This document shows positions 22,281 through 25,806 of a stretch of DNA of 64,000 nt, piece after piece. Source of the DNA: Fibrobacter sp. UWB11 (GTDB lineage: Bacteria > Fibrobacterota > Fibrobacteria > Fibrobacterales > Fibrobacteraceae); contig NZ_FSRT01000001.1 in assembly GCF_900143015.1 (NCBI RefSeq), forward strand, positions 930,001 to 994,000, written 5' to 3'. A program made the translations under genes and the position numbers. Under the pieces are notes generated by a model. It was not told the DNA's origin, made no database searches, and worked only from the letters and a program-made list of their open reading frames with translations. How positions within the stretch are numbered: the stretch's first letter is position 1; each line of letters starts with the position of its first letter.

Positions 22281-22427
22281 AGCGCCCTCGCAAAAACGGC
22301 GCTTACAAGTAATTGGGTTAACCTTGGCGAAGGTCTTCAATTGCTAAGCGAACAATCGTTGGTCGAAGACCAAGGTCTTGTTCGCGTGCAATTTGTAGAC
22401 CGAAGCCTAGACGTTTTCCTTACTTGT
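22281..22427 (+). ncRNA. Structured repeat element, copy 1 (RNA-like, strand uncertain)
   Basis: A first hairpin (AGCGCC with GGCGCT, loop CTCGCAAAAAC) is followed by ACAAGTAA (22305-22312), which pairs with TTACTTGT (22420-22427). Inside lies a long stem: GGTCT/AGACC, AATTGC/GCAATT, GCGAACAA/TTGTTCGC and an apical TTGGTC-GAA-GACCAA. Copy 2 keeps the same plan with different stem sequence. Both strands can form the fold, so the transcribed strand is open; the GH116 terminator lies between the two copies. Confidence 0.5.
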
Positions 22428-22434
22428 TGTGTGC

Positions 22435-22463
22435 AAAAAAACGCCCGGTATTAACCGGGCGTT
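22435..22463 (-). terminator. Terminator of the GH116 gene
   Basis: On the minus strand AACGCCCGG-TTAATA-CCGGGCGTT is a perfect 9-bp stem followed by seven T residues. It lies 200 bases beyond the GH116 stop codon, leaving a long 3' untranslated region that includes element copy 2. Confidence 0.85.
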
Positions 22464-22533
22464 GTTGCGAGAGCGAGGCGAAGACGGAGGTTCTATATTG
22501 CGATAGAGCCGAGCGGTCTTCTTAGTAAAGCAG

Positions 22534-22670
22534 AGCGCCCTCGCAAAAACGGTGCTTACAAGTAATTGCATTAAAGCGTAAGAGAATAAGTCGCTAAGCG
22601 AACAATTCGCAGCCGAAGGCGAGGACCTGTGAGCGTGCGAGCTTATTCTCTAGAGCTTGCTTTTACTTGT
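22534..22670 (+). ncRNA. Structured repeat element, copy 2 (in the 3' region of the GH116 gene)
   Basis: It shares 34 of 35 opening bases with copy 1 (AGCGCC hairpin, then ACAAGTAA at 22558-22565). The long stem is rebuilt with other bases: AGAGAATAAG pairs perfectly with CTTATTCTCT, TCGC pairs with GCGA, and the apical stem is GCC-GAA-GGC. The closing TTACTTGT (22663-22670) overlaps the last two codons of the GH116 gene on the other strand. Confidence 0.5.
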
Positions 22671-25600
22671 AAAGCAGTGCGAACACCATGCCCGGACGGA
22701 AGTACTTACCAGCGGTGTACTTGAGTGCCGTGCTGTGGAGCAGCGTGAAGAGCTCGTTCACATCGACCTTGTTGCTCTTGGCAATGGCGCCGAAAGCCTT
22801 CGTGAAGGCGGCGAGATTGCGCGGGAGCTTCGGGCTGATGCGGGAGTCGGCGAGGAGAGCGCCCTTCTTCAGGAGTTCCTTGTGCATTTTGTCGGCGGCA
22901 GTTGCGCTGAGGCCGAACTTTGCGACGAGTGCTTCCGGGTGGAGGCGGCAAGAACCGTTGAATCCTTCCGGTGCTGCAAACGGAACGCGAGCTTCGTCAT
23001 AGAGGTTTCCGATCATGGAATCGGCGAGCACGGAGGCTTCCTTTTCCAAACCGTGGAACATCATGGCGGTCATGATGCTGTACTGAATACCAATCCAAAC
23101 GTCGTGTGCCTGGAAGTTGAATTCGTCGAGCGGAGAACCGTCCTTACGAACAAGGTTTGCGGCACCGATGAGCGGGCTGTTGGCCTTATAGTTCGTATTG
23201 AAAATTCTGAGCAAGTTAGACTTTGCCTTTGCGCTGTCGGTAATCGGTTCGAGGTCGAGCAAGCGGAGGTAAGTGTCTGCAAGCATCGTATCGGCGAACA
23301 CATCGTCGCAGTCGTTAGCAATCTTTGCTTCCCAGCTCTTGGTGAAGGCTTCCTTGCACTGGGCCGTAATCCAAGCCTTCTTGAGGCCGCGGAGTTCGTT
23401 CTTGGAAAGGTCTTCGCCGTCCGGGATTTCGCCTGCGCAGAGCCATTCGTTGATGGCCTTCACGCCAGCGTTCGGATCTTCCGGGAGTTCCAAAGAAACC
23501 TTCACAGCTTCGCGGAGTTCGGCATACTTTTCGACGTTCAAGTCCTTCATTTCCATCGGAGTCACGAAGAAGCGGAAGTAGCCTTCGTTTTCGTCCCACA
23601 GAGATTCCGTGAATTCCTTGTTTGCTGCTTCAGACTTGGCGTTCCACTTGGCAGCTTGTTCGTTATCGCCGAGGAGTTCTGCAATCTTTGCTGCAGCGCG
23701 GAGGCCTGCAATCCAGAGGGAACCGCAGTAAACGGAAATGCCGTAGCTGCAGAGGTTGTCGAACGTGTCGTCGGTACCGTGCGTGAGCGGGAAGTTTTCG
23801 CCCGGGTTCACCATCTTTTCGAGGTATTCCATAGCGGCGTAAACGGCTTCCTTGCAATCGGCGAGGCACTGCATGTCCTTCGTCTTGTGGTAGTGACGGT
23901 AGACCATGAGCACGTATTTCGGAGCGAGGTCCTTCCATTCCTTAACGTTGTGCCAGTCGTAGGCATCCGGTTCGGCGTCGAAGGGGCTTCCGAGGTCGTG
24001 AATCACTGCGCCACGCACAGCGCGCGGGCCTTCAAGCTTCGGGTCCGGGAGGTCGGCGTAGGGGAGGTTCACAAATTCGTGGTGGCGGCGACGGTTGTCG
24101 TTCACGGCGAGAATGGCATCGCCAAAGCGCTTCATCACAACGCCATCGAGGCGCGGCATGAGGGCGAGCAAGCTAAAGCTGCCGTAGAAGTAAACGTCGA
24201 GAGAGTTGAAGAACGGATAGTCGGCACATTCGCGAACGAGGAAGCGGTCTTCCTTGTCCCACACGGTGGCTTCGGCGAGGAAGCTGAGCGTGTTGATGGC
24301 GAGGCTCTTGAATTCTGCCTGCTTGGCGGCAGTCTTGTAGAGCTTTGCAACCGGCTTCTTCGGAACAAGGTTTTCAAATGCCTTGAGGCGATCGTCAAAA
24401 GTCTTGTCGGCAGCGAGAGCTTCCGTAAGGAGGGCGACCACGCGGCCGTATGCTTCCGGATAGAATGCGGTGTACTTCTTGGCGGAGGTGAGCTTGTTCA
24501 GCTTGATTTCCGGGAAGTCGAGCACCATGTTGAACTGGAAACTGACCTTCTGCTTCGGCTTGAGGACTGCAGTCACGGCAATGGCGCCTGCAATCGTTTC
24601 ACGGCCGCTGTAAACGTTCTTGACCCAGGAACCGGCAACGCGACCGCTCTGGAGTGCGGCCTTCAAAACGCTCTTCGCGTCGTCCTGATAGAACATCGGC
24701 TTCACGGAAACGTTGAGGTTGTCCTTCTTGTTCCAAGCCACGCTCACGCCCATGCAACCGTTGAAGTCGCTTTCGGCAAGAGCCTTTTCGTTATAAAATT
24801 CGATACCGCGAACAGAGCGGCCATCTTCGAGTTCCTTGTCGAACTGCACGCCCTTCGGGAAACGTGCGGCCGGAACGAGAACAAAGCTAGAGTCCTGAAC
24901 GCCCTGGCGGTCCTTCTTGGCCATGTAGCCCGTGATGCTGTCCTGAATTTGGACGATCGTCACTTCGCGGGTTTCCTTGGTGTTGTTTTCGAGCGTAAAG
25001 ACGGTGGCGTTCACCGGGAGGCTGGAGAGGCGTTCGTCGCCCGGAGTCACGTAGCTGGACTGCGTCTTGGTGATGGCGACTCCCTTGCCTTCGTAAACGG
25101 TTTCACTGACCGGATAGAGGGCTGTGTACTTCATCTTGGCGGCGTCATAACCCGGCTGGCCGAGGAATTCGGAGTCGTTTGTCCAAGCAGCGGTGAGGGC
25201 GCCTTCGCGGGCGGCCTTTTCGCCAACCATGCCGTCGAAGAAGTCGATGAGCACGGCGCGGTTGATGGCGGCGGTGTCCTTGCCTGCGGCGATCAAAGCT
25301 TGGGTGCGGTCGCTGAACTGGATGTGCCAGCGTTCAAATGCGGCCTTGTTCGTTTCGAGGAAAGTCTTGTCGGCGAGAACCTTGTTGAGCTTGGCTTCGG
25401 CCTTCTTCTGGTCCTTCATGTCGGCGTCGCCGAAAACGCGTTCGCCCTTGGCGTCGAGGAGCGGGAAGTTGTTGTTGTAGATGCCGAATGCGGCGAAGTT
25501 GCCAATCACGAGCGCAGCCTTTGCGCTGAGCACAGCTTCCTTGAAGAAGAAGTTGTTGAAGCGGAGGTCAGACGGCTTTTCGGTGCGAACCTGGACGCCC

Positions 25601-25806
25601 GGCATCACGTTCATCACGGGAGTCGTGCCTGCAGGCGTTGCGGTAAACGTAGAACCGATACCGCCCACGGCAATACCCGTGGTGGAAGGAGTTGTAGAAA
25701 GCGGGGTGTACCACGGCTGAATGAATTCCACAGCGAGACCCGGGGTCATCAGCTTCTGGACAGAGCCGGACATTTTTGCACCGGCAAGATATTCTTTAAT
25801 GCTCAT
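22663..25806 (-). CDS. GH116-family glycosidase (GBA2-like beta-glucosidase/xylosidase), cytoplasmic
   Basis: The 1047-residue protein matches GH116 (bile-acid beta-glucosidase/GBA2 type). The N-terminal domain has GIAVGGIGSTF (family GGIGxG-like). The catalytic part has VRECADYPFFNSLDVYFYGSFSLL, where E526 aligns with the GBA2 nucleophile region, VIHDLGSPFDAEPDAYDWHNVKEWKDLAPKYVLMVYRHY, and HGTDDTFDNLCSYGISVYCGSLWIAGL, where D679 aligns with the acid/base. There is no signal peptide, so it probably acts on imported or internal beta-glucosides. It is monocistronic with its own terminator. GH94 phosphorylases were considered, but these motifs fit GH116. Confidence 0.8.
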   Translation of the reverse strand: MSIKEYLAGAKMSGSVQKLMTPGLAVEFIQPWYTPLSTTPSTTGIAVGGIGSTFTATPAGTTPVMNVMPGVQVRTEKPSDLRFNNFFFKEAVLSAKAALVIGNFAAFGIYNNNFPLLDAKGERVFGDADMKDQKKAEAKLNKVLADKTFLETNKAAFERWHIQFSDRTQALIAAGKDTAAINRAVLIDFFDGMVGEKAAREGALTAAWTNDSEFLGQPGYDAAKMKYTALYPVSETVYEGKGVAITKTQSSYVTPGDERLSSLPVNATVFTLENNTKETREVTIVQIQDSITGYMAKKDRQGVQDSSFVLVPAARFPKGVQFDKELEDGRSVRGIEFYNEKALAESDFNGCMGVSVAWNKKDNLNVSVKPMFYQDDAKSVLKAALQSGRVAGSWVKNVYSGRETIAGAIAVTAVLKPKQKVSFQFNMVLDFPEIKLNKLTSAKKYTAFYPEAYGRVVALLTEALAADKTFDDRLKAFENLVPKKPVAKLYKTAAKQAEFKSLAINTLSFLAEATVWDKEDRFLVRECADYPFFNSLDVYFYGSFSLLALMPRLDGVVMKRFGDAILAVNDNRRRHHEFVNLPYADLPDPKLEGPRAVRGAVIHDLGSPFDAEPDAYDWHNVKEWKDLAPKYVLMVYRHYHKTKDMQCLADCKEAVYAAMEYLEKMVNPGENFPLTHGTDDTFDNLCSYGISVYCGSLWIAGLRAAAKIAELLGDNEQAAKWNAKSEAANKEFTESLWDENEGYFRFFVTPMEMKDLNVEKYAELREAVKVSLELPEDPNAGVKAINEWLCAGEIPDGEDLSKNELRGLKKAWITAQCKEAFTKSWEAKIANDCDDVFADTMLADTYLRLLDLEPITDSAKAKSNLLRIFNTNYKANSPLIGAANLVRKDGSPLDEFNFQAHDVWIGIQYSIMTAMMFHGLEKEASVLADSMIGNLYDEARVPFAAPEGFNGSCRLHPEALVAKFGLSATAADKMHKELLKKGALLADSRISPKLPRNLAAFTKAFGAIAKSNKVDVNELFTLLHSTALKYTAGKYFRPGMVFALLYK

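Follow-up and report, generated by a model that had tools for sequence, protein, structure and literature searches.

Two nested hairpins at the 3′ end of a Fibrobacter GH116 gene as probable copies of a mobile palindromic repeat

The BOX elements of pneumococcus are repeats with a modular build. Rickettsia palindromic elements (RPE) are dispersed palindromes of ~100-150 nt, found between genes and also in frame inside unrelated genes, where the peptide is tolerated (PMC10969869; PMC2229807). Template switching, described in yeast for short repeats, homogenises the arms of inverted repeats and inverts their spacers (PMC8604942). Here we describe two nested hairpins in a window of 64,000 nucleotides (the whole stretch of DNA analysed) from Fibrobacter sp. 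UWB11. We put at about three in four the probability that both belong to a mobile, non-autonomous palindromic repeat specific to Fibrobacter, whose closest known life style, by analogy, appears to be that of the RPE.

Two hairpins at the GH116 site

The features of the site, in window coordinates, are the following.

22281-22429: copy 1 as a whole, with its small hairpin
22281-22303, + strand: small hairpin AGCGCC..GGCGCT at the distal end of copy 1
22304-22429, + strand: long nested hairpin of copy 1, closing stem 22305-22312/22420-22427, z -6.36
22321-22412, + strand: core of copy 1, covariance model R1, 74.9 bits
22437-22522, - strand: Y, a second palindromic element between the copies, comprising a variable hairpin (22480-22522) and the terminator on the GH116 side (stem 22463-22440, T tail)
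22534-22672: copy 2 as a whole, with its small hairpin
22534-22556, + strand: small hairpin AGCGCC..GGTGCT at the distal end of copy 2
22557-22672, + strand: long nested hairpin of copy 2, in the GH116 3′ region, closing stem 22558-22565/22663-22670, z -4.82
22571-22662, + strand: core of copy 2, covariance model R1, 57.6 bits
22663-22665, - strand: GH116 stop codon TAA, in the closing stem of copy 2
22663-25806, - strand: GH116 gene, hosting copy 2 in its 3′ region (PF04685 1e-67, PF12215 2e-28)

A sequence-only reading of this DNA had singled out the two copies as a structured element with compensatory stem changes, and its coordinates and bases were right. The copies have a common start (22281-22321 and 22534-22574, 93% identical over 41 nt, with one change in the first 35), a small hairpin and the same closing pair, ACAAGTAA/TTACTTGT. 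The inner stems differ and are nonetheless paired, being GGTCT/AGACC plus AATTGC/GCAATT in copy 1 and AGAGAATAAG/CTTATTCTCT plus TCGC/GCGA in copy 2; the apical pair around GAA changes from T-A in copy 1 to C-G in copy 2. Both folds exceed chance: the MFE was -61.6 kcal/mol for copy 1 and -54.6 kcal/mol for copy 2, and equally good shuffles numbered 0/200 in each case. It was also correctly seen that the adjacent gene encodes a GH116 protein, a real one by its two domain matches, and that its stop codon falls within copy 2. The codon lies in the far arm of the closing stem. The small hairpin of copy 1 is the reverse complement of a tail, GCnCCGTTTTTGCGG, found after the far arm at GH116 sites.

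In 16 loci, the two arms of the closing stem at the 3′ end of GH116 matched exactly (9/9 nt), with several different sequences, among them TTACAAGTA/TACTTGTAA (L134), TATTAGTAT/ATACTAATA (L154), TTTACTAGT/ACTAGTAAA (L177) and TATAAATAA/TTATTTATA (L188). The closing stem thus changes together with the last codons of GH116 in relatives. Copy 2 is probably part of the GH116 mRNA, given its position before the GH116 terminator, and may have a secondary role as a 3′-UTR that protects or tunes the end of this mRNA. Copy 1 is flanked by this terminator (stem 22463-22440, minus strand) and by another at 22257-22236.

The Y element reads GACCGCTCG..CGCTCTCGCAAC..terminator..TTGCTCAC and has a variable hairpin of its own. 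It was also found behind GH116 in relatives (L138, L141, L152, L160, L167), often directly at the stop codon, and in tandem in L167. G073 and G001 have the same downstream terminator; Y and X elements lie between this terminator and the GH116 stop in G001, not in G073. In G066 (L193), the place directly after GH116 that palindromes take up in other genomes is occupied by an IS200-type transposase gene.

In several relatives (L187-L189, L185, L191, L192), the repeated units include ~20 nt from the tail of GH116, and in the tandem arrays of L187, L188 and L189 the last ~20 nt of the gene (TTCGCTTTGTTGTATAAGTA) recur with each hairpin unit. The order copy 2, Y element, copy 1 in the window looks like such gene-tail arrays. 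Tandem units that repeat a gene tail, and imperfect palindromes of variable length at gene ends, would also be compatible with integron-like attC sites, that is, folded recombination sites for which the GH116 tail repeats would be cassette boundaries. However, an integron integrase scored above cut-off in 0/80 genomes, GTTRRRY/RYYYAAC core boxes were not seen, and the copies are dispersed and also lie inside ORFs, so that this origin is largely refuted.

A dispersed and modular family

In BLAST with copy 1, the apical part (GCTAAGCGAACA...GAGCGTGC) proved dispersed across related genomes. A covariance model of the ~90-nt core (R1) was built from 15 aligned copies. It matched homologous elements in 51 of 80 same-genus genomes (best E-value 6e-26), including 31 of the 40 most complete ones; many complete genomes are without the family. 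Copy numbers reached at least 25 in G094, 23 in G005 and 18 in G067, all lower bounds, few candidates having been scored per genome. The genome of the window (G000) has three confident copies, two at GH116 and the third 300 kb away. With outer stems, the elements measure 100-200 nt. The two copies are thus two members of a genus-wide dispersed, modular palindromic repeat. Unrelated palindromes arisen by chance, or ordinary terminators, would agree with the presence of terminators beside the copies, but this explanation is refuted by the folding z-scores and by a family present in 51 genomes with E-values to 6e-26.

When 84,980 species were scanned with an exact DNA pattern, 14 stretches matched, all in Fibrobacter/Fibrobacterales records, and the same kind of scan gave 0 matches in viral contigs; by this pattern, the family is Fibrobacter-specific among the species scanned. 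No description of such a repeat in Fibrobacter was found in the literature searched, where absence is not proof.

Intergenic hairpin repeats at gene tails could be of the REP/RAYT type and owe their spread to a Y1 (TnpA_REP-like) transposase, and Y1 genes are indeed present in 27 of the 80 genomes. However, G000 has no Y1 gene, nor do G094, G067 and G068, which contain 16-25 copies, and the present elements are longer and nested. Across the 80 genomes, Y1_Tnp, the only transposase family searched, did not correlate with copy number. We consider it very improbable that these elements are of the REP/RAYT type.

The copies are mosaics. Outer types A and B both carry apex classes a, c and f, and type G also carries class c; the same apex modules are thus found on different outer stems, and vice versa. 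It follows that much of the difference between copies 1 and 2 is module exchange: the stem differences that had been called compensatory are indeed paired, but many represent replacement of a whole stem or apex module and not stepwise compensation. The apices of L022/L145 (G001) and, from a different clade, L148/L178 contain an inserted hairpin module of ~50 nt. Inversion was also detected. Compared with L166, from a GH116 site, the inner part of L198 is 81% identical inverted and 65% direct, and that of L196 74% inverted and 63% direct, while in both the outer arm and the GCnCCGTTTTT tail keep their orientation despite the inverted inner part. The nested copies suggest that new units may lodge preferentially in loops and gene tails.

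Other sequences were observed in or next to the elements. L190 (G061) and L194 (G060) have enlarged apices at the GH116 3′ end, where a further palindrome of ~80 nt (CGACGCAAGCCGAGG..), distinct from the ~50-nt module, is inserted. In several type-A copies (L093, L099, L101, L080, L045 and L046), the core comes ~20-100 nt after a short recurrent ORF whose end reads YKIESLEPRLMMDA* or a variant of it; this resembles the LEPR motif at the N-terminus of large surface proteins, as though the truncated start of a gene travelled with the repeat. The cores of L076, L078 and L085 are preceded by sequence reading SVRCV.D, which may be how Fibrobacter major paralogous domain proteins end.

Copies were also found inside coding genes. 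Protein-family checks of host ORFs were made for TruB, PriA and MiaB only, as the ORF-context script overcalls ORFs. In TruB (TIGR00431) of G005 and G095, the core forms a ~96-bp in-frame insertion between VVAQDER and LKSVLPRF, and TruB of G010 is without it. In PriA of G020, the linker that precedes the helicase domain contains the core in frame; the linkers of G094, G005 and G052 have only sequence matching the outer hairpin of the element, and PriA of G068 and G071 has neither outer hairpin nor core. This series (none, outer hairpin, outer hairpin plus core) was counted as nesting. In both TruB and PriA, the core strand is antisense to the host gene. For MiaB, the element is not in the MiaB domain but in what looks like a 5′ extension.

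TruB of G020 (L020, 737-1903) carries further interspersed in-frame repeats (KVPEFVEGPKD, VILSEEPEARSRRIQ) in the same loop, which marks this loop as an insertion hotspot. The PriA linker before the helicase domain (L256-L267) is different in most genomes, both in length and in sequence, and consists for the most part of repeat sequence.

Conserved pairing and its possible origin

Pairing conserved with covariation was present in the family, and such pairing is not specific to RNA. In 83 distinct aligned copies, 94% of cells pair and double changes occur at 11 of 16 pairs, so the pairing is kept in related copies and the sequence-only reading withstands the refuting test that it had set itself. 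The covariation score of these copies was 0.235, compared with 0.103 +/- 0.006 for shuffled and at most 0.047 for slid alignments, an effect size biased towards the model, to which the alignment was fitted.

With an RNA-level fold, G.U is expected above A.C on the transcribed strand. On the core strand, the G.U to A.C ratio in free hairpin alignments was 109:60 overall, 68:27 outside GH116 sites and 41:33 at GH116 sites, and in fixed core columns it was 29:27. These counts are not independent, mismatches being common to related copies, and the result of this test is therefore mixed. A terminator-like hairpin closes many type-A copies on one strand, the core strand, as it would a transcript. 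A scan of the window region with Rfam 15 gave sub-threshold matches only (at E<=5), and a scan of seven loci found tRNAs only and no family for the element.

The sequence-only reading had proposed a selected RNA or hairpin DNA. A selected RNA structure, acting within 3′ UTRs or as a small RNA in mRNA 3′-end protection, termination or regulation, with compensatory mutations kept by selection, would account for the strong covariation, the folding z-scores, the exact stop-codon stems of several sequences in the 16 loci, the terminator-like 3′ hairpins in many copies and the excess of G.U outside GH116 sites. However, there was no such excess in core columns or at GH116 sites, both core orientations occur at one site, copies in coding genes lie on the antisense strand, and copy 1 sits between two terminators; furthermore, modules are swapped, the family is missing from many complete genomes and no Rfam family matches it. 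The conserved pairing is real, but a single selected RNA is not supported by these observations and we consider it unlikely; hairpin DNA is nearer the evidence.

For a mobile palindromic repeat, the genomes compared offer dispersed copies, orthologous positions filled in some genomes and empty in others (TruB, PriA, 3′ end of GH116), in-frame carriage, nesting, module exchange and an inverted core in a fixed outer stem. We propose that such copies spread as hairpin DNA by putative machinery acting in trans, and that gene tails and the loops of hairpins are the main places where new units settle; at GH116, units would also form short arrays repeating the last ~20 nt of the gene. DNA-polymerase template switching between the arms would keep them complementary and invert the spacer. 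In this way, paired changes in the stems, also those tracking the GH116 stop codon, would arise without RNA selection, and the inverted cores would be explained too. As an account of the pairing and of the inverted spacers, arm homogenisation by template switching is thus at least as good as RNA selection. Mobility is here read from genome comparison, and some absences could result from deletion. No clean short target-site duplication was found at TruB or PriA, and only the ~20-nt gene-tail repeats at GH116.

A more specific scheme is put forward tentatively, as its probability seems to us well below even. Palindromes would transpose preferentially into the loops of other hairpins through a putative loop-specific (single-strand-specific) enzyme, so growing nested hairpins at gene tails and in ORFs, and template switching would pair every layer, including that of the stop codon. 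The nested, module-swapping copies and the PriA presence/absence series make such growth at hairpin tips directly testable.

Comparison with known systems

Like the RPE, the Fibrobacter element is a ~100-150-nt palindrome with a long stem-loop, is multi-copy and dispersed (up to 25 per genome) and lies in frame in unrelated genes (TruB, PriA). It differs from them in apex exchange, nested hairpins, gene-tail arrays and a stop codon in the closing stem, and no sequence relation was seen, judging by the core pattern, which matched only Fibrobacter among the 84,980 species. The RPE way of life, with palindromes in frame in housekeeping proteins, would thus have an independent example outside Rickettsia, in a free-living gut/rumen lineage.

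With MITE and BOX elements, it has in common that it is a short, structured, modular and non-autonomous-looking repeat; it has inverted arms, but neither terminal repeats of a known IS nor a cognate transposase was identified (Y1_Tnp searched). REP and BIME are likewise hairpin repeats favouring gene 3′ ends, whereas the present element is longer, nested and not tied to a RAYT-type transposase. The equal arms and inverted spacers predicted for template-switched inverted repeats (PMC8604942) are those seen at GH116, although that system concerns short repeats in yeast and this one a multi-copy bacterial element. One caution follows for paralogous copies in general: textbook-looking compensatory pairs can stem from mobile palindromes with arm homogenisation, and not from a selected RNA. 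In conclusion, these comparisons point to a probable mobile palindromic repeat that is distinct from the RPE by its sequence, its nested modular build, its gene-tail arrays and the stop codon in its stem.
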